64,000 nucleotides of DNA from Fontisphaera persica (GTDB lineage: Bacteria; Verrucomicrobiota; Verrucomicrobiia; Limisphaerales; Fontisphaeraceae): positions 1,364,001 to 1,428,000 of the forward strand of contig NZ_CP116615.1 in assembly GCF_024832785.1 (NCBI RefSeq), given 5' to 3'. Positions within the stretch are counted from its first letter, which is position 1, and each line of letters starts with the position of its first letter. This document shows, in pieces, positions 1,711 to 47,340 of this stretch. Both the position numbers and the translations under genes were made by a program. Below the pieces are notes generated by a model. That model was not told where the DNA came from. It did not search any database and saw only the letters and a program-made list of their open reading frames with translations.

Positions 1711-4365
1711 TCACGGGAATTGCACTTCGAGGATAGCGGGACCCTGGACCTGCAATGCCATCCATCCTTGCGCATGGCCCACCTCGTGCGGCGGCTGCAA
1801 CGGCAAATCCCGGCCGTTGAGTTTCAATCGGGGCGTGGCAGACAGGCCGCTCAGCAGCACAAAATAAGGCTGGGAGGGCCAGCCCATGACTTGGAAACGG
1901 GCGGACTGCGCGTTTTCCTGCTGGATGCGAATGTGGCCGGGAGCATGCACGTTGAAACCCGCGCGGCGGAAACGCTTAAAATCCCATAATGGAACTTGTG
2001 TGAAATAGTTGACGGCGTTGGCCCCCACCGTGCCGGGGTTGATCGCGGGGCCGTCAGCTTGTTGCTCGCGAAGAAGGAAATAGTCGGGCAGCAATCCCAC
2101 GCGGTTGGTGTCCTCAGCCTTCCAGGTATGTTGGAGACCGGCCACGGTAATGCCGTCAGCCACCGTACGCCAGATGCCCCGAGGATCGGCCTCGGCCAGC
2201 CGATACAGAGAATCAGCGTACACCAAACCACACCATTGAACGGGTTGCCCAAACCAGACGGGGGCTTTCCAGGTGGTGGCTCCCAGCACGGCAATGGTGC
2301 TGTACAAACCCACTTTGCCTTGCGTTGGATTGACCAGATAAACAAACGGAATGCCCGTCCATGCCCAATACCGCGCCTGTTCCAAAAAGGCGGAGTCCCC
2401 GCTTAATTCGTAGCCAAGCACATATGCCTTAACCAGATGGGCTGAGGCTAAAATATCCGGTGTGTGCAAAGGAATTTCCCATGTCTGCGCCCCGCGGGGC
2501 ACGCCGTGATTATAGCGCTTCTGCGCGCGCAAGGCAGTCAAGGCGCGTGCCGTCAACTCGCGATCGCCACAAAAGGCGGCGGCTTGCAGGGCTTCGGCCA
2601 GCGGTTGAAAAGTCAGACCATTGGCGTGATTCGTCCAGTAAGTGCGTGCGTAATCCGGCCCGCCAGGTGTCGGACGGTAAAACACAAGATAATCATCTCC
2701 CAGGCGCTTAAGTTGACTGGCGGCGTATTCGCGCGCGGTGTTGATATTGTCGCTCACCTGACCAAATACCAGGGGCACGGCCGGACCGCGCACATGGCTT
2801 ATGGCGGAATGGAAATAATTCCGTGAGGGCACCAAGGCAAGGGCCTCAGCGGCTGCCTGACGCAGTTCCTGGGCAAACGGAGATTCACGCCGGGCCAGCC
2901 AAGTCATGTAAAGCGCCGCATCAGCCGCAGGTTGCGCATTGAACCCGGGCCAGACGGCGTGACGGTAGCGGTTGCCCTCGCGGACTTTCGAGCGTAACCA
3001 GCCCCGGGCCGCCAGTTCTTCGTAGGCCGGCAAATCCATGTAATTTTTGGCGTAAGCCGGCAGGCCATGCAAAGCCACGTATTGTTGGACGGCGGGAATG
3101 ACCGTGCTGCCCTCCCCCCCCATCAAACGCAGCCGGCATTCAACCTTTTCCCCGCCTCGTAAAAGCCGAGGAAAATGAGGCACCAAACTGCCCTCTGGAC
3201 GGTTAGCACCGTCCGATTCAGGCCAAATCACCCCCATGACGTGGCCCCTGCTGCCATAGAGCCGGTCGGGCGAATCGAACACGGCACTAAAGCCAAGATG
3301 GTTGTCATAAGCCAGGGCGACATAATGTCCACGTTCCTGCACCACCATGAGCGGAAAGGTTATCTTATGGTTGGCTGGAACCTGTCGGCGAGACTCAGGA
3401 CCAATGATATCCGCCTCCGAGCTGCTAGGCTCGTTTTCCAGATATTCCAGCCCGGCAAAAAGCGCCTGGTTTTTATTGGTGCCGAAGGTCCCTTCCCCGG
3501 CGGCAAGCAAAAACATTGGCACATATAAAACCTCGGTATCTTGGGAGGTTTCCAACACAGTTCTGACCTCCACGACATTGGCCGAGCCAGCGCGAAACTC
3601 CTGTGCATACCGCCATTCAGCACCCCGGACATCTTTCCAGACGGCCTCCAACTGATAAATTGAAGGTGTCATCCGCACCACAGGAAGTGGAATATCCATC
3701 CAATGTTGCTTCATTTCATGCGCATAAGAAATCTGAAGACGCGGATGCGCATAAGCCATGGCGTGGCCATTCACGCGCATTTCAACGCCCCATCGAGAAT
3801 CCGGGGCATCCCAGCACTCCACCAGGCCGGACTTCACCACTCGCCGACGGCCGGGGGCAGGCGGCTGCCATGGGACTGGCGGTGGGGTAAACTCCGCCCG
3901 TGGTTCAAATTGAATAAATGCCAGGACAGCTTCGCCGGAATTACCGGGCGGGTCCAGTCTAAAACGGTATTGTGGCCCTAATGCGGGCAACGGCAGCCGA
4001 ATTTCTGCCCATTGATCTTGGGGCACAATAAACCGCCGCGACTGATCTTCCGTGGCATGACGATCGAAAAAGAATAATTGGGCCATCCCACCCGACGATG
4101 ATTTGAGACGGATTTTCACCCAAAGCAACTGGTTAGCAGGAAAATCGCGAGCTGGACTGTGGATATAAGGATCATGGCCAGCAATCACCATCCGCAATCC
4201 TTCAGCAACTGGCTCGAAGTGGCTGAGGTGGTGGGGGCCATGCCATTGCCGGGCTTCTTCCGGGCGGGTCAAATCAAAGGAAGGCAAGGTGGAGGCGCTG
4301 TGAAGCCCGCACACGCTTACCCCAAAAGCTAAAACCAATATGCTCCAGGCAAACTTTCTATACAT
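1711..4365 (-). CDS. large secreted protein, possibly carbohydrate-active, function unknown
   Basis: An 884-residue product. The ATG at 4365 is preferred over the longer frame (to 4443) because it opens directly into a signal peptide: Met-Tyr-Arg-Lys, then a hydrophobic stretch ending near Cys-Gly-Leu-His-Ser-Ala-Ser. Residues about 30-190 look beta-rich, like a carbohydrate-binding or jelly-roll domain. About 440-790 is helical with Trp/Tyr-rich motifs (for example His-Ala-Val-Trp-Pro-Gly-Phe) resembling an (alpha/alpha)-toroid as in some glycosidases and lyases. The last 80 residues form a small beta domain. I do not recognise the family, and the toroid idea is inference from pattern. It is followed 4 bp later by avtA, so the two probably share a transcript, though no functional link is obvious. 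Confidence 0.7.
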   Translation of the reverse strand: MYRKFAWSILVLAFGVSVCGLHSASTLPSFDLTRPEEARQWHGPHHLSHFEPVAEGLRMVIAGHDPYIHSPARDFPANQLLWVKIRLKSSSGGMAQLFFFDRHATEDQSRRFIVPQDQWAEIRLPLPALGPQYRFRLDPPGNSGEAVLAFIQFEPRAEFTPPPVPWQPPAPGRRRVVKSGLVECWDAPDSRWGVEMRVNGHAMAYAHPRLQISYAHEMKQHWMDIPLPVVRMTPSIYQLEAVWKDVRGAEWRYAQEFRAGSANVVEVRTVLETSQDTEVLYVPMFLLAAGEGTFGTNKNQALFAGLEYLENEPSSSEADIIGPESRRQVPANHKITFPLMVVQERGHYVALAYDNHLGFSAVFDSPDRLYGSRGHVMGVIWPESDGANRPEGSLVPHFPRLLRGGEKVECRLRLMGGEGSTVIPAVQQYVALHGLPAYAKNYMDLPAYEELAARGWLRSKVREGNRYRHAVWPGFNAQPAADAALYMTWLARRESPFAQELRQAAAEALALVPSRNYFHSAISHVRGPAVPLVFGQVSDNINTAREYAASQLKRLGDDYLVFYRPTPGGPDYARTYWTNHANGLTFQPLAEALQAAAFCGDRELTARALTALRAQKRYNHGVPRGAQTWEIPLHTPDILASAHLVKAYVLGYELSGDSAFLEQARYWAWTGIPFVYLVNPTQGKVGLYSTIAVLGATTWKAPVWFGQPVQWCGLVYADSLYRLAEADPRGIWRTVADGITVAGLQHTWKAEDTNRVGLLPDYFLLREQQADGPAINPGTVGANAVNYFTQVPLWDFKRFRRAGFNVHAPGHIRIQQENAQSARFQVMGWPSQPYFVLLSGLSATPRLKLNGRDLPLQPPHEVGHAQGWMALQVQGPAILEVQFP

Positions 4366-35204: not shown

Positions 35205-38200
35205 TTACGGCGCTGTTGGGCTGGCTGCCACGCGGTAGAACCGGTTGGCTGCAGCCGGCGACGAATCCGTTAGCGTCAAGATGCCACCCGTGCCTTGCAC
35301 CGCCGGCAACCGCTGCCAGTTGGCGTCATTCAGATCGTTCTTGTACTCGATCCAATACCAGACACCCGCCACGGATTCAACGGTGAAGGAGAATCCCGAA
35401 GGGCCAAAGACTGGCGCCGCAATGCTGGGCGGAGGCGGCGGTTCAACAATGGTCACCACCAGGGTGGCTTCCTCACTGAGCGTGCTGCCCACGCTGTTGC
35501 GCACCTCCACCGTGTACACACCCGCCTGCACAGGCATGACATTGGTCAACGTTAATGTGGCATTGGTTGCACCTTCAATGTCCACGCCGTCCTTCTTCCA
35601 CTGGTAAGAGGCCGGGTCACCACCGATGGCGGCCACGGTGAAGGTGACCGTGGTGCCGGCCGCCGCCGTGACATTAGTGGGTTGAGTGGTGATAATGGGC
35701 GCCACCGTCGGATAGACCGTGATGGTGGCCGTGTTGGTGGCCGTCAACCCGATGCCATCAGTTGCAATCAGGGTGATCGTATGGTTGCCCAGTGCCAACT
35801 CTGTCCCCGGCGCCGGAATTTGCTCAATCACCACGTAGCAACCATTGTCGGTCACCTGAACTTGTGAGCGGAGGTCTGGCAGCGCCAGCAGGTGGTTGGC
35901 ACCCGCCCCAATCATCTGGTCTTGCAGACCCGTGACGAACACCGGCGGCTCAGGCGTGGTTTCCGTGACGATGATGGTCACCGCCTGATACACCCGGCTG
36001 CCGGCCTGCCCGTCGTTGACGGCGTAGTAGAACGTATCCGACCCACACAGCGCAGGTGGCGGCGTGTAGATTACCTGCGAACCGGACACGGTGACCGTGC
36101 CACCTTGCGCCGTGTTACGCGGTACTGCCAGGATGTAGAGGTCGTCCACCCAATGCGCCTCGAACTCGCCACCTGTCCGGGCGAAGATGCCGAATCGTCC
36201 GCCGCTGATGGGTTGGTACGGGGTTTGGATGTTATTGAAGTAGGTAACCCCACCCAAGGAGACGTCCACCGTGCCGTCTGCATCCATGCGGATGTAGAGG
36301 TCCTGGTAGTCGGTCATGCTAATCTTGGCGATTGGGTAACGCAGCATCCACGAGCCAACCTTGACCTCGATGGCTGGAGCTTCGTTGCCGCCGCTGTTGT
36401 AGTTGTCAATGTTGACCGTGAAGCCGCTTCCCACACCGTCCTCGGCCGCGCCAGGCGCCGGGCCATTGGGCAGGTCAGTCGCGAAGTTGATGCTGATGCC
36501 ATCAGCCGCATTGGCCGAGCCGCGGCCAATGAACAACTTGGCGCGGATGGTGAACTCAGACACCGCCATGGAGCTGATGGTGGAGTCATTCACCAGGAAG
36601 CTGCCATTCTGGCTGCTCACGGCATCCGTCAATTTGAGAACACCGCTGTTGCCCACGCCGCCCGCCGCGTCAATGTAGCCGTTGCCATACACCATGGTAT
36701 CCGGCGGCAGGAGACCGTCGTTGAAGTTGAAGGACAGTTCACGCGGCAATCCCGCATAGACCCGCTCGAAGTTGAGCGTGGCCCCTTCCGGATCGCTGTC
36801 GTTGGCCAGCAACTGGGCAATAGGCACAGAGACCGGTGTATTCGCCTGGGTCGTGAGGGTGTCAGCCCCCGTGACAGGCCGCTGGTTGACCACGGTGACA
36901 TTCAACGGCTGGCTGGAGGTTTCGCCACCGTGGTTGCCGGCCACCAGGACGTACACGCCGCTGTCCGCCGCCTGGGCGTTGGCCAGTTCCAACGTGGCAC
37001 TGTTGGCGCCCGGGATGACGACGCCATTCTTCAACCATTTGATGGTGAGCGGGCCGCTGTTCGGCGGGTTCACAATGTTACCCGTGAGCGTCACCGTGGC
37101 GCCCAAGTTGACCTGGACGTTCTCCAGCGACGGATCCACCGCCACCGACGGCGCCGGCGGGAAGTACAGGTTGTCGTACACCGCCGTCGCCCGGATGTTC
37201 ATGTCGTGCGACGTCGTGGCCAGACCTAACAACAGCGTACGGGCAAGGGCGGCCACACGGGTGTAGTGCAGCGTCCAATTCACGCCATCATAACTGTAAT
37301 AGGCGGAGAAGTTGTTGCCCTGGCGCACCAGGCGCACCCAGTTGTTCGGGTAATCCGTCAGCGGCGGCCGTACCAAGCCGATGGCGGCATCGCCCGTGCT
37401 CTGGGAGTTCGGCGCCACCGCAGCATCACGCCACTGGAAGGAGAAGGTATTCTGGCCTCCGCGTGGCGTGGAGCACATGTACATGTTGAAACTGTTATTG
37501 TTGGTGGTTTCGCGCGCCATGATGCCTGCCTTCGTCCAGGCATTGGCCTGCGTCAGGCTTTGCACGCGGACACGGACGTCAAAGTCGCCCGTAACCCGGC
37601 GGTACAACAGGTGTTGTCCATCCGCCGTGCCCCAAATATCCGCGCCATCGCAGTTGACGCTAATAACGCCCAAATCCTGCATGGACACCACGCTGGGAGC
37701 TGTGAGTTGGCCCGTCCCCAGCCCAATATCCACGGAGGTGTAGCCGTAATTGAGTACCGCACCAGTGAGGTTGAAGGCGAGGTTGAGCGACCGGTCATAG
37801 GCCATTTGGATGACCAATTGGCAACCGTTGGGCAGATAGGCATCCGCCGACAGTTTGACCGTCCGTCCATCCGGCAACAGCTCGCCCACTGAGAAGCCGA
37901 TGCTGTTGTTATTGCCCAGGTCAATACCGTAGAGGGTGGTATCGGCCGGGTTGTACAGGGTCGTATCCAACATTTCGTTGAATCGCACATACAGGGTATA
38001 GCCGTCCAAAGTGGCCGCCCATTCGATGGCGGGCGGCTCGGTGTCGGCGCCAATGGTTAAAGTGGCCACTGCGCTTTCTACCGGGGCGGCACCCGGCGCC
38101 ATGACCACTACTGAGTAATCCACGGCCACCAAGTCAGGTGTAAGAATCGGTGTGGTGTAAGTCGGCGCGTTGGCGCCAGCAATGTTCACACCGTTGCTGC

Positions 38201-41200
38201 GCCATTGATAGGCCAGAAACTCAGCCGCCCTTAGCGGCTCAGCCGTGGCTCCGACTGACAAGGTGGCGGTGCGATACGGCAGCACGCTGCCACCCTGCGG
38301 CTGTTGAGTAATCGTGACCGCAGACGCAGGCGCATATGCGCCAATGGTGGAGCCACTGAGAGGAGGCAGGGTAGCCGGATCAGTCCAAGCCGGATCCGAA
38401 ACATCAATCCACGGACGGATGGCGAGGCGGAAGTAATCGCCGCCACCGCCTTCCTTGCCCAGCACTTCAAAGAAGTACCGCTGGCCCGCCACCAGGTTGT
38501 TGGTGAACGAGCGCAGACCATCCGCAAATGCGCCCTGGCAGCAAGGCTGATTGATAATTTCCACAGCATTGGCCGGGTTGTCGTCAATGCTGCCACGAAC
38601 AATTACGGCATCATCGTGGGCCACGTAAATGACATGCGGCCCGCTGACCTGCGGGGTGAAAAAGCCGCGCATCACCGCACCGTAGTTGTTCCAGAGTGCA
38701 TCAGTTAGATTATTGCCGAGGTTCACCTGGTTGGTGTAGCCAGTGACATCGGCGGTCAATGCCGCATATTTGACGTTGTTGGTAAGGTCGGTAATCGCCG
38801 AGCCGGCAATGTTGGTGTAGCGCTCGTAATACACAAAGTTGGTGGTGAACGACCACGCGGTGACCGTGGCCACCAAATCGCCTGCAACATTCGCCGTCGC
38901 TGCGCGATCCGCAATGTTGGCCGCCACCACGGTGTACGTGGCCCCCTCAGTCGGCGGCGGGTTCAGGGTCAACAACACATCGCGGTTGTTGCCCAGCAGG
39001 ATTGCGCTGGTCACGGTAAGCGCTCCTGCATCATTGGTCACCAGGTAATTGGCGGTGTTGCCGGCCGAAGCAGCCGAGACCGGCTCGCTGAAGCGCAGCC
39101 AGAACTCGCGCGTGCCACGGAAGCCGCCCTGAGCCGCCACCAACGTGGGCGCCTCAAGGTCGCGCACCACTTGGATGACCGTCGGGCTGCTGGTGATAGC
39201 GTTATAGGCAGTGACCACCACCACATCCACCGACATGCCATTGTGTGCGGCAAATGACAAAGCAGGGGTGGTATAGGTGCGGTTGGTGGCATTGGGCACA
39301 GCCACGCCGTTGGTGCGCCATTGGATGCCAAACAGCGGATAACCATCAATGACGGGGGCAAACGTGACGGTGGCCAGTTCATTGGTGGTGAGGCTGGCCG
39401 GCATGCCTGTCACCCGGGCAAAGGTATTGGGTATCGGCCCAGAGAGGTTGTCAGGTCCAATGCGGGAAATGACGCCATTCACGGGATCAACATCATTGGG
39501 GCCTTTCCAGTTGACGGCCACGTAATCGCCACCACTGCCTTCGCGATGGCGCACTTCGATGTAATAAGCCTTCCCAGCCTGCAGGAAGATGGGCACAGAT
39601 ATGTTCGCCTGGATTCCTGTGGCAGGATTGATACCCCGGCGGCCGCTGGCATTGCTGGTCCAATCCCGCGCATTGCCATAGCTTGGCTCATAGCAGACAA
39701 GCCGGATATTGGCCGGATTTTCATTGGTGCTCAGGTACAACTCACTGTTGTCGTCCGAGGCGATGTAGAAGGTGTAATTGCCCGTACGGTCAGGAATCAA
39801 GAACCCTTGGAAACGCGTAGCATAGTAATCCAAGGCAGGGCTGAGTTGTGGCTTGTCTGGAGTGGTCATGAATTCAATGACCGAGGGCTGGTCGTTAATC
39901 CACACGGCGGTGTTGGTTAACGCGGCCAACGAGCCAGGATTGTTGCCAGAGGTGAAGTTGTATTGTTTGCGGACAATGTATCCTTGCGGCACCCAGAACT
40001 TGTAGGTCGTATCCACAGCCACCGGATTGGGTGGGTTCGCAGAGTCCGTGAGGTTGTTCACCACGACGTTATAGGCCGCTCCGGGCAGGAGGAGTTGAGA
40101 CAGCGTTAACAACACCGTCGTACCATCTGCCTGCAACGCCGCGGAGACCACGGGCACATCGGCAATGCCATCTGTTATCCGATAATTGGCCGGGTTGTTC
40201 GCGGAGGCTGCCGCAAGCGGTTCGTTGAACATAACCCTCACCTGGTCGCGGTTGGCCACGCGAACCTGCGCCCCAATGATGGCCGGGCCCACGTTATCCG
40301 GAGCTGACAGCACTACCGTTGCAATGGCGCTTGCAAAACCGCTGGGCGTGTAGCACATCACGCGGAAGCGGTTGGTCGGCTCGCTCACCGGCGGGGTGAC
40401 ATAAGTACTGGTCAGGGCGTAAGGAATGTTCGTAAACACCCCTGACCCCAACGCCGTTTCTCGTTGCCATACGTATTGGACGGGCAGGCGTGTATCCACA
40501 CCTGCCGCCATGGCGGTCAGGGTGGCGGATTGTCCCGGCGCCACCGTCACCGTGCCGGGCGATTGCAGCACATAGACATCCGTCCGGTTTTCCGGAGCCA
40601 CCGGCATTAGGAAGTAGGCACCGCTGGTGCCCGGTTCCGAGGTGTTGTCAGAAGGCACATAGTAGTTATTCGGGCCGCGAATGATAGCGGTCACGTAGTC
40701 GCCACCGGTGCCCTCCTGCATGACCGCTTCAACGTAGTACCGCTGGCCAGCAGTCAATGGTGCCACGGAGTAACGCGGATTGCCGTTGAGGTTGTTATTG
40801 TAGGCCACGTTGGCTCCTTCAACGCGTGCCACGATTTGCTTGCCGTCCGGTGCTGGCCCCGTCGGGTTCGCAAACAAAATGGAACCGTCGTCGCTGCGCA
40901 CATAGAAGGCGTAGTTACCCGTTTCGGGCGGCACGAACCAGCCAATCACCCGTGCGCCATAGTATTCCATGTTGGCCGGGGCGTAGTTGAAGATGTTCCG
41001 CACATCTACCACATCCGGTCGTTTGTCCACGAACTTTTGATTGAGGTAAATGCCGTTGGCTGGCGTGCCGGGCGCCACGAAATCCCACTTGCCGATTTCG
41101 TCATAGCGTTCCACGCGCACAAAGCCTTGCACCATGAAATGCGAGGTGAAATTCGTCGTCACCGTCAAGGACGGCCCATTGGGGCCCGACGCTCGAATAT

Positions 41201-44200
41201 CGGTGAGGGTCAACGGATAGGTTGTGTAATCACTTTGCAGGCCGGTCTGCAGGAAGATGGCCCGGTTGTCGGAGCGCAGACGCCAGCCAATCACCGGCAA
41301 TCCGCCCCCCACCTGGATAGCATTAGGCGTGAACACAGAAACCGGATCCACGGGACGGTTGAACTCAATTATGGCACCGTCCATGGTGGCTTCTGAGCGC
41401 AAGCGCACGATTTGCAACGGAGTTGGGTCCTCCGCGAAAGCAATGGTGACGCTGGCCTCGGCCCGGCTGAAGAGGTTGCTGACGACGTAAGTATAAACGG
41501 CACCTGCCTCCGCAGGAGTGGCATTGATTTCCAAGGTGTATCCCTGGCCAGAAGCGCCCGGAATGGGAACGCCATTACGGAACCATTGCATGAGATACGG
41601 GCCTGCTCCTTGTATGCCTTTGGCCTTTAAGACCACTCGCCCGTAGTAGGTCAATGGCATGGCAGGCGTGATTTCCTGAATGCTCACCGGACCTAATGTC
41701 GGCTGGAAGAACGAGGCTGGAATAAAGGAATCCGAGGTCGGAGTGGTGGTGCTGTTGATGGTGTAAGCAATGCCAAAACCATCACCACCGGTTCCTTCAG
41801 CGTGGATGAATTCGAAGTAATAACGCTGCCCAGCCACCATATCCACGCCACCCAACTGATAGCGGTTGCCAGTGCCGTAGTTGGTGCCTGAAGAGCCACC
41901 TGTATAGGCAATCAGAACGGCGTCAGAAGGATCCCAGCTATTCACCGCGTTGGTATTCATGAATAAGCGGGAACCATCGTCCGATTTGATCCAGAAGCGG
42001 TACAAACCGGAGCTTTGCGGCACAAAATAGCCGCGAATACGAGCTCCATAGTTATTTAGGGTCGAGTCAATAAAGTTCGGGAAGTTAAACACCGGAGCGT
42101 TGGTGTAATAAATCACATCCGCAAAGGTGCCCAGCACCCGCGGGTGATAGATAAGGTCCTGCAAACGGCCGCCATAGTTGGGCACGTTTTGCCACATTTC
42201 AAACAGGATGGGGTTGTTGACGTAGTTGGGGGCGGTGTTGGTGCGGGAAACTTCTGCCATGGGGTTGTCCGCCGCGTCGGTCATGTTAATAAAGGTCACA
42301 CTATAATTTGCTCCTGGGTTGAGGAGGGTGCCCAACGTGAGCACTACGCGCGAGTTGTTGCCGAAAGGTTCGGCTTTCAACACCGGCACCATGGTGTTGT
42401 TGGCATCCAGCACCAGGTAACTGCTGATGTTGGTGAGCGAAGACAGGCTCATGCCCTCGGAGAAGGTCACCAACAGGCAGTTGGTTGAGCCGGGCGCCAC
42501 AACCATCGAGGAGACCGTGGGAGGCGTGGTGTCACCGGCCATGTTCACCGTTAATTCGGTGGAGATGGCTTGAGCACCGGGGACCTGAACAATGCAACGA
42601 TAACGAGCACCATGGTCGCTCCATAAGCGCAAGGCCGGGGTGGTGTAGGAGGCGCTGGTAGAAGCCACCCCTGGAATGGTGACAAAGGTGCTGCTGCCCG
42701 GATTGGCCCGTTGCCAGATGTACCGAATTTCTGAAGCCGGGGCCACGGTGGCTGTTGCGGCAACGGTAAGCGCCAGTGTGCTGCCGTCATTAACGTTGGC
42801 CGATGCCGCCAGGTCAGTCGTGATGGTGACAGTAGCCCCCGGATAAGTGAAGTCGCCAAAGTCACGGAAGCGGCCCGAAGCCTTGCCCATGTACCAGTTG
42901 GCGTTGTAGTGCACTGTGCCCATCAACCCAATCCACATGGTGGCCGGCGAGCTCTTGGTATATGAACCCGTCAAAACCGTCCAATTGGTGCCGTCGGTGC
43001 TGGAATAAGGCGTGAAGGTGTCACCGGCGCGGCGCAGACGAATCCAGCAGTTGGGGAAGGTAACCACTGGTGTGCCGGCGTTGTGAATGGTGGCAGCACC
43101 ATCTGCCGGGGTGGCACGACGGCCAGCCTCGAAGCGGTTCAGCCCCTGCCAGAGCATGGAGGTGGCCGGCGGGAAGGGATGCACGGTGACCCATGGGGCG
43201 GCAGAGTACAAGTCATCACGGGCAATCAGGCCAAACTTGGCCAGGTCAGAGGAGTTCTGCGGCTCCATAATCAAGGTTTCCGTGGCCCGCACGATTTCCT
43301 CAACGCGGACTTTGATATCGAAGTCACCCGTGCGCGGAATCAGGAAGAAGTAGCCTTGGTCGCTATTTCCCCAGATGTCCGAGCCACCTGCGGAGAAATC
43401 AATGGCGTTGGGAGCGGGGGCAGCCTCTACCGTTCCATAGACCAGCGGATAGCCGATGTTCGTCCCCAAGAAATTCCAATCCCAACCGGTGGTGGCCACC
43501 GTGCCACCGCCTACATTACCACTGGCATCCGCGATGTTGGCCGCCGTAACCGAGAAGGTGGGAGAAGCCAGGGCGGTCAGCAAATCCAGGCGCACTGTCT
43601 TCCAGTCATCCAACAAGGTGGCCTTGCCCACGGTGGCGCCGGTCACGGTGTAGTTTGCGGGATTCTCGGCCGTGGCTTTGTCCACCGTTTCACTGAAGAC
43701 CACACTGGCCAAATAACGGCCTGCGGCACCAGCGGAAACAAGCGTAGGTCCGGTGGTATCCGTGCCTTGCACCGTCAAACGCGCCACACTGCTGGTAACC
43801 GAGCCATAGGCGCTGGAAGCCACCACGTGATACAGCGTGCCGTTCATGGCAGCATTGGCCGGCGGCGTGCGGTAGAGAATGTTAGTGGCTCCCGGAATGG
43901 CCACCCCATTGGCGTACCATTGCAACGAAGGGCTGGCCAGGAGGCTGCCTTCCAGACCCACGCGGAAAGTGGCTATGCTGCCAGGCGTCACGATTTGCGA
44001 GGCCGGAGCGGAGGCAATCAAAGGCAACGGGCGATAGTCCTCATAGATGGCCAGGTCATCGAGGTTATCAGTGCCGGTATCGTTGTTGCCACGGAAGGAG
44101 ATATAGACAGAGGAATCACGCGCGATGACAGAATTGGGAATCAAGGTGGGCGCAAAATAGTGGATCATGCGGCCGGGTGCCAGGCCGTCACTGCCGAAGT

Positions 44201-47000
44201 CCCACACCGCGCCAGTGACGCGGATATTGTAGCTGTCCACATTTTCGAACCATACCACCACTTTGTACCACCGGTTGGCGAGCGGCCGATTTCGATTGAC
44301 CGCCAAACCATCCACCACGGTGGTGTCGAGGGATTCCTTGTTCTGGAAGCGGAAGTCAGTTTCCGGGCTGTTGTTGGCCACGGTGTCCCAACGCAAGGTG
44401 ATCCATTGCTTGTCGGCATCTGCGTTAGGCCGGCTTTGGGGAGCCTGGACCAACCCAAGCTGCAGGATGCGCTGCGGGCTGCCCGAACCACCTGCCGTCT
44501 TGAATTTCACCATCATTGAGACACCGATAATCTTGCCCGGCCGGGAGAAATTAAAGACGCGATTGGTCAAGGTGGCGCTGCCGTCGGCGTTGTTGGGCAG
44601 GTCGAGAGCCGGAGAGTTGCTGACACCGCCAGTGCTGACCCAGTTGAAGTTGCCCGCGTTGGTGTGATAAGTGCTCTTGAAGCCAGCTTCCGTGTTGAAG
44701 GGATCGAAGAAGTTGGGGGTGGGATAATTCACCCGCAGAGAGGCCACCGTGCTGGTCACAGAACCACGCTCATTGGCCGCCACCACGCGATATTGTCCCA
44801 CGTCTTGCATGTTGGCATTATTGATGACCAGCGTGCTGGAGGTGGCGCCGGGAATATCAATACCGTTCAACTGCCACTGTAAGGTCGCTGCCGGGTCGGC
44901 ATTCACGGCCACGGTGAAGGTGGCACTTCCCCCAATAATCGCCGTCTGATTCGCTGGCTGAGTAGTGAACACCGGAGCGAACTTCACATCCAAAAAAGCC
45001 ACGGCGCTGGTTTGGCTGAAGAAGTTGTTGGCCACGACAACCTGGTAGTTGCCTTCACTGGTGACTTGCACCGGATTAATGGTCAGGGAAGCACTGGTAC
45101 CACCCGAGACTGGCTGGCCGTCCTTATACCATTGATAGGTCAGGAGGTTGCCGGAGGCGACAACCGTAAAGGTGTGGCTGGCGCCTGCGTTGACCACTGC
45201 TCCCTCCGGCTGCGTAGTAATGTTCACCGGAAACACGACGGTGACGTTGGCCACGGAGCTGGTCACTGCTCCCAAATCATTGGTAATCACTGCCCGATAT
45301 TGGCCGGCGTCGGCAGCCGTCCAAGCCAGGCGCGCCATGGCATTGGAAGCAGGGGCATCCGAAGTCACAACCTGCCAGTCAGTGCCGTCAAATTTCTGCC
45401 AGATGAACGTCAAGGGTGTCTGACCGCGAGCCTGAATGCTGAACCCGCCGAAACTGCCCTCGGCGAAGAAATAGTCCGGTTGGGGTTGCTGGGTAATCAC
45501 TGGGACCAGAAGCACCGTAACCGTAGCCACCGAGCTGGTGACACTGCCGGCCGCATTCTGGACCACCACATCATAGGCGCCGCTGTCGTTGGTCACGGCG
45601 TTGCTCTTGGAATAAGTGGGACCGGTGCCAATATTGGCCCCGTCTTTACGCCATTGGTAGGTTAAAGTCCCCTGCCCCACCGCCACGACGGAGAGGTTGA
45701 AACTGCCCCCGTCCGGCACGCTCACACTTTGCGGCTGGACCACAATAACGGGCGGAGTCAGGACGCTGCGCTCCGGCGAGGGGCTGCCTTCGCCCTCAGG
45801 CAAATCGGCAGTCACTATATAATAATAGGTGGCGCCGTTGGTGAAGGTGTTGTCGGTGAAGCTGGTGCCCGCCACCGAGCCATCCAAAAGCTGGTAGGGG
45901 CCACCGGCAACCAATGAGCGATACACGTTGTAACTGGTCGCGCCCGTAACGACTGGCCAGCTCAAATCAATCTGGCCATTGTTATAGGTGGCCGTCAAGT
46001 CTGCCACTGCCGCCAAGGGCATGCCGCTGATTTCCGTCGAGTAAAAACCTTCTCCCAAACCCGAGGCCGCATTGATGATATAGTAATAAGTGGTGCCATT
46101 CACCAAGCCGGTATCCAAAAGCGAGGTTTGCGCAGTGTTCGTGACCAGCGTGTACGGCCCGCCCGCCGTGGTAGCACGCTGGATGTTGTAACTGGTGGCA
46201 CCAGGCACCGCCGCCCAGCTCAAGTTCAGGGCACTGTCGCGCCGCTGCACATTTAATGTTGGGGCGGGCAGAGCTTGAGCAATCACCACGCCATAAACAC
46301 TGCGCCCGCCATTGTCCGCGCCGAAGGTCTGCACATCGCCGGCAGCAACGGTCTTGACATAGACTGACATGAAATCGTTCAGTGAGCCGTCATTGGAGTT
46401 ATCATTGGCCACCTCATCCGGCCAGTCCGCCCGTCCGGCACGGTTAAGGCCATTCATAACAGCCGTCCAGCCATTGTTCGTCAGCCACTGCATGTTGTTG
46501 GGCCCGAAGGTGGGAGGATCGCTGGGGTTGGCCGTGGCCTCCCCAAGCCGGTTGTCCACCAGGATGTACACCTTGGACGGCACCGCGAGGGAGATGGTCA
46601 AAACCATGTTGGTATTATCGCGGTTGTCGTTGCCAATCATGATGTACTCCGCCCCCTGAAGGTAAGGGAGCACCACGGGTTGTCCCAAGCCATTGGTAAA
46701 CCATTTCCAAGTGTGGGTCCGATCCACGAAAGCAAAAACGCCATTGGCAAAAGAGGGCACGGTGAAGGGGTCCAGAAATTCACCTGCCATGCCATTGCTA
46801 AAAGTCACGCCGGTCCATTTTGCCGTGACGGTATCGGTGGCTTCGTTGTCTCCTCCGACCTCCACGACATTCGTTATGTTGGGAAAGGCCATCAAGACCA
46901 CGGTCATGCACACGTAGGCAACCACCGCAGCAAGGCGGGCGGGCCAGCGGCGGAAGGTCTGGGCCATTGGACGGAACATGGAGACAGGCTTGGTTTTCAT
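35205..47000 (-). CDS. giant secreted multidomain protein (Ig-like, FN3, PA14, lectin-like)
   Basis: 3931 residues from the ATG at 47000; a longer frame to 47102 would precede the signal (Arg-Trp-Pro-Ala-Arg-Leu-Ala-Ala-Val-Val-Ala, hydrophobic to about 37). Domains by eye: N-terminal domain 40-240; two FN3-like 243-413; four Ig-like 415-753; LamG-like 763-990; then six repeats of [Ig-like, bacterial Ig-like Big_5, third domain], where the third domain is DUF1349-like (about 1180-1380), PA14 (1595-1750), PA14 (1960-2113), PA14 (2340-2500), PA14 (2720-2867), DUF1349-like (3100-3283); Ig-like; a Big_9-like domain split by a lectin-like insert (3373-3680); an Ig-like domain 3767-3848; and a short C-terminal beta domain. 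PA14 copies keep Tyr-x-Phe-x-x-x-Ser-Asp-Asp-x-Ser. PA14 binds glycans, so adhesion or polymer capture at the surface is likely. No catalytic domain or PEP-CTERM tail was seen. Confidence 0.9.
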   Translation of the reverse strand: MKTKPVSMFRPMAQTFRRWPARLAAVVAYVCMTVVLMAFPNITNVVEVGGDNEATDTVTAKWTGVTFSNGMAGEFLDPFTVPSFANGVFAFVDRTHTWKWFTNGLGQPVVLPYLQGAEYIMIGNDNRDNTNMVLTISLAVPSKVYILVDNRLGEATANPSDPPTFGPNNMQWLTNNGWTAVMNGLNRAGRADWPDEVANDNSNDGSLNDFMSVYVKTVAAGDVQTFGADNGGRSVYGVVIAQALPAPTLNVQRRDSALNLSWAAVPGATSYNIQRATTAGGPYTLVTNTAQTSLLDTGLVNGTTYYYIINAASGLGEGFYSTEISGMPLAAVADLTATYNNGQIDLSWPVVTGATSYNVYRSLVAGGPYQLLDGSVAGTSFTDNTFTNGATYYYIVTADLPEGEGSPSPERSVLTPPVIVVQPQSVSVPDGGSFNLSVVAVGQGTLTYQWRKDGANIGTGPTYSKSNAVTNDSGAYDVVVQNAAGSVTSSVATVTVLLVPVITQQPQPDYFFAEGSFGGFSIQARGQTPLTFIWQKFDGTDWQVVTSDAPASNAMARLAWTAADAGQYRAVITNDLGAVTSSVANVTVVFPVNITTQPEGAVVNAGASHTFTVVASGNLLTYQWYKDGQPVSGGTSASLTINPVQVTSEGNYQVVVANNFFSQTSAVAFLDVKFAPVFTTQPANQTAIIGGSATFTVAVNADPAATLQWQLNGIDIPGATSSTLVINNANMQDVGQYRVVAANERGSVTSTVASLRVNYPTPNFFDPFNTEAGFKSTYHTNAGNFNWVSTGGVSNSPALDLPNNADGSATLTNRVFNFSRPGKIIGVSMMVKFKTAGGSGSPQRILQLGLVQAPQSRPNADADKQWITLRWDTVANNSPETDFRFQNKESLDTTVVDGLAVNRNRPLANRWYKVVVWFENVDSYNIRVTGAVWDFGSDGLAPGRMIHYFAPTLIPNSVIARDSSVYISFRGNNDTGTDNLDDLAIYEDYRPLPLIASAPASQIVTPGSIATFRVGLEGSLLASPSLQWYANGVAIPGATNILYRTPPANAAMNGTLYHVVASSAYGSVTSSVARLTVQGTDTTGPTLVSAGAAGRYLASVVFSETVDKATAENPANYTVTGATVGKATLLDDWKTVRLDLLTALASPTFSVTAANIADASGNVGGGTVATTGWDWNFLGTNIGYPLVYGTVEAAPAPNAIDFSAGGSDIWGNSDQGYFFLIPRTGDFDIKVRVEEIVRATETLIMEPQNSSDLAKFGLIARDDLYSAAPWVTVHPFPPATSMLWQGLNRFEAGRRATPADGAATIHNAGTPVVTFPNCWIRLRRAGDTFTPYSSTDGTNWTVLTGSYTKSSPATMWIGLMGTVHYNANWYMGKASGRFRDFGDFTYPGATVTITTDLAASANVNDGSTLALTVAATATVAPASEIRYIWQRANPGSSTFVTIPGVASTSASYTTPALRLWSDHGARYRCIVQVPGAQAISTELTVNMAGDTTPPTVSSMVVAPGSTNCLLVTFSEGMSLSSLTNISSYLVLDANNTMVPVLKAEPFGNNSRVVLTLGTLLNPGANYSVTFINMTDAADNPMAEVSRTNTAPNYVNNPILFEMWQNVPNYGGRLQDLIYHPRVLGTFADVIYYTNAPVFNFPNFIDSTLNNYGARIRGYFVPQSSGLYRFWIKSDDGSRLFMNTNAVNSWDPSDAVLIAYTGGSSGTNYGTGNRYQLGGVDMVAGQRYYFEFIHAEGTGGDGFGIAYTINSTTTPTSDSFIPASFFQPTLGPVSIQEITPAMPLTYYGRVVLKAKGIQGAGPYLMQWFRNGVPIPGASGQGYTLEINATPAEAGAVYTYVVSNLFSRAEASVTIAFAEDPTPLQIVRLRSEATMDGAIIEFNRPVDPVSVFTPNAIQVGGGLPVIGWRLRSDNRAIFLQTGLQSDYTTYPLTLTDIRASGPNGPSLTVTTNFTSHFMVQGFVRVERYDEIGKWDFVAPGTPANGIYLNQKFVDKRPDVVDVRNIFNYAPANMEYYGARVIGWFVPPETGNYAFYVRSDDGSILFANPTGPAPDGKQIVARVEGANVAYNNNLNGNPRYSVAPLTAGQRYYVEAVMQEGTGGDYVTAIIRGPNNYYVPSDNTSEPGTSGAYFLMPVAPENRTDVYVLQSPGTVTVAPGQSATLTAMAAGVDTRLPVQYVWQRETALGSGVFTNIPYALTSTYVTPPVSEPTNRFRVMCYTPSGFASAIATVVLSAPDNVGPAIIGAQVRVANRDQVRVMFNEPLAAASANNPANYRITDGIADVPVVSAALQADGTTVLLTLSQLLLPGAAYNVVVNNLTDSANPPNPVAVDTTYKFWVPQGYIVRKQYNFTSGNNPGSLAALTNTAVWINDQPSVIEFMTTPDKPQLSPALDYYATRFQGFLIPDRTGNYTFYIASDDNSELYLSTNENPANIRLVCYEPSYGNARDWTSNASGRRGINPATGIQANISVPIFLQAGKAYYIEVRHREGSGGDYVAVNWKGPNDVDPVNGVISRIGPDNLSGPIPNTFARVTGMPASLTTNELATVTFAPVIDGYPLFGIQWRTNGVAVPNATNRTYTTPALSFAAHNGMSVDVVVVTAYNAITSSPTVIQVVRDLEAPTLVAAQGGFRGTREFWLRFSEPVSAASAGNTANYLVTNDAGALTVTSAILLGNNRDVLLTLNPPPTEGATYTVVAANIADRAATANVAGDLVATVTAWSFTTNFVYYERYTNIAGSAITDLTNNVKYAALTADVTGYTNQVNLGNNLTDALWNNYGAVMRGFFTPQVSGPHVIYVAHDDAVIVRGSIDDNPANAVEIINQPCCQGAFADGLRSFTNNLVAGQRYFFEVLGKEGGGGDYFRLAIRPWIDVSDPAWTDPATLPPLSGSTIGAYAPASAVTITQQPQGGSVLPYRTATLSVGATAEPLRAAEFLAYQWRSNGVNIAGANAPTYTTPILTPDLVAVDYSVVVMAPGAAPVESAVATLTIGADTEPPAIEWAATLDGYTLYVRFNEMLDTTLYNPADTTLYGIDLGNNNSIGFSVGELLPDGRTVKLSADAYLPNGCQLVIQMAYDRSLNLAFNLTGAVLNYGYTSVDIGLGTGQLTAPSVVSMQDLGVISVNCDGADIWGTADGQHLLYRRVTGDFDVRVRVQSLTQANAWTKAGIMARETTNNNSFNMYMCSTPRGGQNTFSFQWRDAAVAPNSQSTGDAAIGLVRPPLTDYPNNWVRLVRQGNNFSAYYSYDGVNWTLHYTRVAALARTLLLGLATTSHDMNIRATAVYDNLYFPPAPSVAVDPSLENVQVNLGATVTLTGNIVNPPNSGPLTIKWLKNGVVIPGANSATLELANAQAADSGVYVLVAGNHGGETSSQPLNVTVVNQRPVTGADTLTTQANTPVSVPIAQLLANDSDPEGATLNFERVYAGLPRELSFNFNDGLLPPDTMVYGNGYIDAAGGVGNSGVLKLTDAVSSQNGSFLVNDSTISSMAVSEFTIRAKLFIGRGSANAADGISINFATDLPNGPAPGAAEDGVGSGFTVNIDNYNSGGNEAPAIEVKVGSWMLRYPIAKISMTDYQDLYIRMDADGTVDVSLGGVTYFNNIQTPYQPISGGRFGIFARTGGEFEAHWVDDLYILAVPRNTAQGGTVTVSGSQVIYTPPPALCGSDTFYYAVNDGQAGSRVYQAVTIIVTETTPEPPVFVTGLQDQMIGAGANHLLALPDLRSQVQVTDNGCYVVIEQIPAPGTELALGNHTITLIATDGIGLTATNTATITVYPTVAPIITTQPTNVTAAAGTTVTFTVAAIGGDPASYQWKKDGVDIEGATNATLTLTNVMPVQAGVYTVEVRNSVGSTLSEEATLVVTIVEPPPPPSIAAPVFGPSGFSFTVESVAGVWYWIEYKNDLNDANWQRLPAVQGTGGILTLTDSSPAAANRFYRVAASPTAP

Positions 47001-47340
47001 GATGCTCACTGCTTTGAGGGTTTTAAACAACAGCCCACGCACCCCCTGCCGGATAGGGCGGGCTAGCCGGCAACCACATAGAACTGCCTGTGGCTGTGGC
47101 ACGTTTGGCTGTCATTTGTAAAAATGAGATTATTCCGTTGTCTCAAAAACGCAAGTCTTTTCGTAACAAAAAATTCACCAAAATTGGGGACAAAAAAGAA
47201 TTTGTGCGTCCAGCTTGGGATGGGGGCATGACCAAGAAGCGGCCGGGAATGGAGCCACCTGCCTTTTCAGCCGGTGGGCCATTTTTTCATTGTCTCAACC
47301 GTCGGCTGGCGCGAGAATTCCATTAAACGTCCAGCGCCCT
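47001..47340. promoter_or_regulatory. AT-rich divergent intergenic region; weak promoter candidate
   Basis: This 340-bp gap between the giant gene (minus) and the thioesterase gene (plus) is AT-rich at 47105-47205. On the minus strand TTGCGT (47149-47154) and TAATCT (47127-47132) are 16 bp apart and could be a -35/-10 pair for the giant gene, giving a leader of about 120 nt. The match is modest. No RNA gene or repeat was recognised. Confidence 0.3.

Follow-up and report, generated by a model that had tools for sequence, protein, structure and literature searches.

The flocculins and epithelial adhesins of yeast (Flo5, Epa1; GLEYA/PA14) present one N-terminal lectin head per protein and no row of heads. 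By profile, they have the PA14/GLEYA family in common with the protein described here. A closer counterpart in size is MpPA14, a DcisD PA14 lectin that is likewise part of a giant adhesin, the 1.5-MDa adhesin of Marinomonas primoryensis; its DcisD motif holds a calcium that binds sugar diols, according to the part of the report cited here (PMC8092209). PSCyt proteins of freshwater Verrucomicrobia likewise combine PA14 or Laminin_G_3 with a Big-type Ig-like domain (Big_2) and, in the section of PMC5615132 referred to here, have planctomycete-type cytochrome and PSD domains as their core. A conserved C-terminal domain common to many secreted proteins is known from type IX secretion (PMC4804311, cited in part).

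We analyzed a stretch of 64,000 nucleotides from Fontisphaera persica (contig NZ_CP116615.1, positions 1,364,001 to 1,428,000; referred to as the window), which encodes a protein of 3,931 residues. In contrast to the Marinomonas adhesin, four PA14 domains alternate here with Ig-Big_5 spacers and are accompanied by DUF1349 caps, and a Pfam scan of the protein at E<=10 found no RTX calcium repeat families. Unlike in the PSCyt proteins, neither planctomycete-type cytochrome nor PSD domains were found in the Pfam scan. The C-terminal tail resembles the type IX domain in being common to many proteins; however, 30 members of this tail domain gave no match to the type IX (Por_Secre_tail type) C-terminal domain in Pfam and NCBIfam at E<=1.

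Architecture and conservation of the protein

The open reading frame lies on the minus strand (window 47000-35208, ATG start) and is followed by a stop codon at 35205-35207; an alternative GTG start is located at 47102. Judged from the sequence only, the N-terminus is signal-like. The neighbours are ordinary genes (URO-D, DnaE), and no polysaccharide-use cluster is evident around the gene. In another genome of the same genus (G001) the whole protein is present end to end with 84.8% identity and both flanks are syntenic. Between these two proteins the six heads are 86-91% identical and the Ig-Big_5 spacers 72-90%. The whole-protein dN/dS is 0.079 (dS 1.24), showing that the whole protein is under purifying selection.

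Table 1. Features of the 3,931-residue protein, from the N- to the C-terminus (positions in the window)
Feature	Position	Strand	Residues (aa)	Detected by
Signal peptide and N-terminal domain without Pfam match	46269..47000	-	1-244	
Two fibronectin III-like domains	45753..46268	-	245-416	Pfam, own HMMs
Four Ig domains	44721..45752	-	417-760	Pfam, own HMMs
'LecA' (working label), domain without Pfam family	44031..44720	-	761-990	
Unit 1: Ig, Big_5, DUF1349-like	42834..44030	-	991-1389	
Unit 2: Ig, Big_5, PA14	41691..42833	-	1390-1770	
Unit 3: Ig, Big_5, PA14	40581..41690	-	1771-2140	
Unit 4: Ig, Big_5, PA14	39429..40580	-	2141-2524	
Unit 5: Ig, Big_5, PA14	38325..39428	-	2525-2892	
Unit 6: Ig, Big_5, DUF1349	37161..38324	-	2893-3280	
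Ig domain	36888..37160	-	3281-3371	
Bacterial cadherin/Big_9 domain, split	35961..36887	-	3372-3419 and 3628-3680	
L-type-lectin-like domain inserted in cadherin/Big_9	36120-36743	-	3420-3627	
HYR-like domain and last Ig domain	35430..35960	-	3681-3765 and 3766-3857	
C-terminal tail domain 'Ct', R-F-Y-R-V near stop, no Pfam/NCBIfam family	35208..35429	-	3858-3931	

A preliminary description had placed six units of an Ig, a Big_5 and a third domain at about 44.0-37.1 kb on the minus strand of a secreted 3931-residue protein, the third domain being DUF1349-like in the first and last unit and PA14 in the middle four. Coordinates and order were borne out by Pfam and by our own module HMMs, which were seeded from these same window copies and gave one Ig-Big_5-DUF1349, four Ig-Big_5-PA14 and again one Ig-Big_5-DUF1349 module for aa 991-3280 (nt 44030-37161). 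Pfam recognized PA14 (PF07691) in four stretches (107.6 bits, cut-off 24), Big_5 (PF13205) in five (85.3 bits, cut-off 23.6), DUF1349 (PF07081) in two (43.6 bits, cut-off 32.4) and Ig_3 in six. Scored alone, the DUF1349 copy of unit 6 exceeds the cut-off (33.0 bits) and that of unit 1 stays below it (27.5 bits); at E<=0.1, DUF1349 is recognized in 22 of the 23 sequences of the DUF alignment. The Asp-Ile-Trp-Gly opening reported for both copies is present as GSDIWG at aa 1206 and as GADIWG at aa 3119.

When the full protein was compared to itself by BLAST, no off-diagonal pair was listed; the copies were therefore compared domain by domain in shuffle tests. The PA14 copies are pairwise 31-37% identical (shuffle Z 15-24) and the two DUF1349 copies 32% (Z 23-24). 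The Big_5 copies are more diverged (22-52%, Z from about 0.4 to 21), the most alike pair being units 1 and 5 with 52%; all these identities come from semi-global alignments, in which some percentages cover a short overlap. At the DNA level there is only short, diverged repetition, with 57 nt at 65-72% for the longest family, and thus no recent duplication. The module copies are real homologs, but old.

Outside the six units, the 'LecA' domain is conserved in the proteins of G001 and of two genomes from other families, G013 and G041. The N-terminal domain has no informative match in Pfam or PDB; it was detected (window 46269-46964) in 13 of 58 genomes searched, own genome included, and three tandem domains of this type occupy the slot after Ig-Big_5 in locus L118 (8195-10072). 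Near the other end of the protein, the two halves of a Big_9/cadherin-like profile flank the L-type-lectin-like domain, which appears to be inserted (window 35961-36887).

A socket for heads and the history of the units

The head order of the window protein, D-PPPP-D (D, DUF1349; P, PA14), is also present in the own-genome paralog L121, in G013 from another family (Ig4-'LecA'-D-P-P-lectin-P-P-D) and in G041 from a third family ('LecA'-D-PP-PP-D-Ig-lectin-lectin-HYR). With the G001 loci included, an Ig domain directly precedes 145 of 161 Big_5 domains. Big_5 is followed by PA14 in 89 cases, by DUF1349 in 44, by an unrecognized head-size domain in 4 and by an L-type lectin, an N-terminal-type domain or no head in one case each; 21 cases were not assignable. 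Pfam analysis of unrecognized and terminal heads detected GH115_C (L125), Laminin_G_3 (L146) and CBM96 (L122). In L114, the lectin-like head gave a weak match to L-type lectin; no informative Pfam family was found for the head in L142 or for the final one in L122. Judged by these families, the slot after Ig-Big_5 appears to be a socket for carbohydrate-binding domains in the relatives.

The order of heads was tested in 78 arrays after four G001 loci had been dropped; 29 arrays combine PA14 with DUF1349, and 28 of these mixed arrays have an uncut 3' end. DUF1349 closes 24 of the 28, compared to 11.2 expected from within-array shuffles (0 of 20,000 as high), and is found inside between PA14 domains only 3 times (12.4 expected, p 0.0003). 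Sampling a single array from each family gave a median of 16 out of 19 with DUF1349 at the end, versus 7.6 expected. At array starts DUF1349 is not enriched (8 of 28 versus 11.2 expected), and mirror symmetry as a general rule was rejected. The near mirror symmetry noted earlier for the window protein holds for the order of head types only, all units pointing the same way. The palindrome is thus a trait of this array lineage, and the general rule is the DUF1349 end cap.

An Ig-Big_5-PA14 profile matched 12 of 96 phylum genomes at E<=1e-20 (own genome included), the matches outside the own genome being mostly to the PA14 part only. The window core matched 56 of 58 genomes at E<=1e-3, a count that includes Ig-alone matches and genomes which are nearly all from the same order, own genome included. 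A scan of named genomes yielded 60 loci, mostly with matches to the Ig stretch only; in L053-L112 our own HMMs detected one Ig-Big_5 pair, zero PA14 and zero DUF1349.

The array had been explained by unit duplication with swapped end domains; on this view, one unit was multiplied in tandem within the protein and the end heads were replaced later. The Ig-Big_5-X plan common to all units and the pairwise likeness of the units 1 and 5 Big_5 domains are consistent with this, and so are AU tests on the heads alone, which do not reject a single clade (PA14 p 0.065; DUF1349 p 0.176), the heads being too short. Cassette trees were built from 80 stretches (L113-L192), a biased sample chosen by match to the window core or N-terminus or to own-genome PA14, DUF1349 or Big_5 hits; these are quick trees with long branches, and single support values call for caution. 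A single clade was rejected for the four Ig-Big_5-PA14 units (31 rows, AU p 2.3e-5) and for the six Ig-Big_5 blocks of the window (42-row subset, AU p 0.007), in both cases taken with those of G001; as units, the copies are thus not each other's closest relatives, contrary to the duplication model. The block tree comprises 115 Ig-Big_5 blocks after removal of three G001 loci, of blocks lacking an Ig and of those shorter than 150 aa. It joins units 1, 2 and 3 to the units of the same number in G013 (SH-aLRT 88, 90 and 95) and does not bear out the likeness of units 1 and 5. Grouping unit 6 with the last unit of G013 raises the likelihood in the 42-row subset (p 0.775), which is not proof. The full-unit tree (31 rows) places unit 2 with unit 2 of G013 (97) and then unit 2 of G041 (96), unit 3 with unit 3 of G013 (97) and unit 5 with a unit of G002, a genome of the same family (99).

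In the clade that includes the Ig-Big_5 blocks of units 1 and 6, 15 of the 16 blocks carry DUF1349 (SH-aLRT 98, quick tree); therefore, the end modules look inherited as whole cassettes, and swapped end domains are not supported. Across the block tree the head type changes 19 times versus 34.7 times in shuffles (0 of 500 as low), and at least 4 changes are forced by the starred branches. Head type thus partly follows the block, and cassettes mostly move as wholes, with some exchange of heads. With both AU tests, the position-by-position grouping with the array of another family and the DUF1349-linked clade against it, in-protein duplication appears largely refuted by the unit and block trees, and we consider it very improbable. 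On the same trees, the array appears to be inherited in order rather than freshly duplicated; it would be old, its order being kept by selection.

The C-terminal tail domain

The less expected part of the protein is its tail. The last ~70 residues (aa 3858-3931) form a domain of which the retrieved loci contain 30 members; for these, a comparison to NCBIfam gave no family beyond chance and no match to the PEP-CTERM C-terminal anchor at E<=1; no description of the domain was found in the open-access literature searched. The own genome has 80 tail matches at E<=1 (66 at E<=1e-3), with three in one frame and two in another, and the tail was detected in 38 of 96 phylum genomes, own included, with up to 60 matches each. 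A tail ORF match was obtained in 29 of 30 loci examined, and all 29 end 0-4 residues before the stop; L209, which has an interrupted frame, gave no such match. Among 41 tail matches in 40 phylum loci, the distance to the stop is at most 6 residues for 37 and at most 10 for three; the remaining one is the inner copy of a tandem pair. As a control, we determined how often domains of the same ORFs lie <=10 residues from the stop: this is the case for 29 of 29 tails compared to 0 of 199 Ig, 0 of 11 fn3, 1 of 116 PA14 and 1 of 141 Big_5 domains. Dozens of large proteins, most of them with a signal peptide, end in this tail and its terminal R-F/Y-Y-R-like motif; matches of the own genome lie in L193-L222. 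The N-terminus looks signal-like for 29 of 39 tail proteins (L302 excluded) versus 10 of 26 other window genes; the filter was crude and missed some signals, and some frames were wrongly chosen. A search for SprA gave no match in the genome, and control genomes were likewise without match.

By analogy with the type IX domain, position and number suggest that the tail is probably an export or anchoring tail. We tentatively propose that it is recognized by an as yet undescribed outer-membrane route of this phylum for export or anchoring, which more than 50 proteins of a single genome would use; the Ig-Big_5-X array would be one of the main cargoes, with heads moving as whole cassettes and DUF1349 marking the array end. 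The tail might also be merely the last FnIII- or discoidin-like stalk domain and no sorting signal, a reading to which we likewise give limited credence. It agrees with a weak likeness to FnIII (hhalign probability 58.6%) and with the only Pfam match of the tail, F5/8-type discoidin, in 1 to 2 of the 30 members (E down to 2.6e-4), as well as with chitosanase discoidin domains in PDB (E 7e-4). It does not explain why all 29 tails stand at the very end when Ig, fn3 and PA14 domains of the same frames almost never do, nor why otherwise different proteins have the tail in common. If the tail is a recognition signal, this family, present in neither Pfam nor NCBIfam, lists candidate cargo of the putative route. 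What began as an anecdote on a single protein yields two statements, on the socket and on the tail, that can be tested in a phylum with little previous study.

Heads, folds and proposed function

Both Asp residues of DcisD and a GGD loop are present in all four PA14 heads of the window protein, and order-wide 113 of 131 heads have both Asp. In PDB, the profile matches of the PA14 heads are 6qdi, a protein with two PA14 domains, and lectins of the Epa and Flo type. A structure model of unit 5 has a modest mean pLDDT of 59, and its fold matches cover the Big_5 part, which matches the S-layer protein SbsC with Z 15.7 and rmsd 1.5 over 98 residues; the fold lists contain no PA14 match, which does not speak against a PA14 fold. 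The DUF1349 model (pLDDT 34) was too poor for a fold search. Solved relatives of DUF1349 are uncharacterized (3mep, E 0.0059; 3o12, E 0.082), and one of 23 DUF1349 members weakly matches GH43_C2, a concanavalin A-like domain. Because of this weak match and the families that share its slot, DUF1349 is a predicted sugar binder. The fixed Ig-Big_5 socket with exchangeable heads in non-random order leads to the same prediction; no paper combining DUF1349 and PA14 was found in the open-access literature searched.

The protein is a real, conserved, modular multi-head protein and a new arrangement of known domains. We favour, with a probability of about 0.6, a secreted, surface-held multi-lectin protein tying the cell to polysaccharide. 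The signal peptide, as far as the amino acid sequence tells, would direct export via the Sec pathway. Ig and Big_5 domains would form an extended rod, the Big_5 fold being assigned by model comparison, and each Ig-Big_5 pair would provide a fixed socket for a single carbohydrate-binding head. With their calcium motif, the four PA14 heads probably bind polysaccharide through calcium, and the DUF1349 heads closing the array probably bind sugars as well, as concanavalin-like domains. Mucilage of algae or plants is an example of the polysaccharide to which the cell would probably be tied, and the tail, common to dozens of large own-genome proteins, would probably serve as export or anchoring signal. 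The rod with four glycan-binding heads proposed earlier is supported by the Asp-Asp calcium motif in all four PA14 domains; however, four heads are too few, because two DUF1349 domains and one L-type-lectin-like domain are further candidate heads.

The best fold matches of the Big_5 part are two S-layer proteins, SbsC and SbsB (Z 15.7 to 15.0), and the protein could instead be a structural matrix or S-layer-like wall protein whose heads bind the cell's own surface polysaccharide. We regard this as unlikely: the Pfam scan at E<=10 found no SLH wall-binding domain, Big_5 is a generic spacer, and in known adhesins the glycans bound by PA14 lectins are external ones, as stated in the cited part of PMC8092209. 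Giant proteins with carbohydrate-binding domains have also been read as weapons for predation or cell contact in other PVC-group bacteria (PMC12057145, cited in part). For the window protein such a role has very little to recommend it, as the Pfam scan of its 3,931 residues found no catalytic or toxin domain.

Two further giant frames were observed in the own genome. An open frame of 20,890 residues (C1:958887-1021556, plus strand; L303-L306) carries the motif LEQRVLLSA close to its beginning, one PA14 match and repeat units of about 119-131 residues. Another of 10,034 residues (C1:1732212-1762313, minus strand; L310-L311) combines the motif LEPRVLLSA with repeat units of about 121 residues, and the adjoining frame of 778 aa ends in the tail domain.
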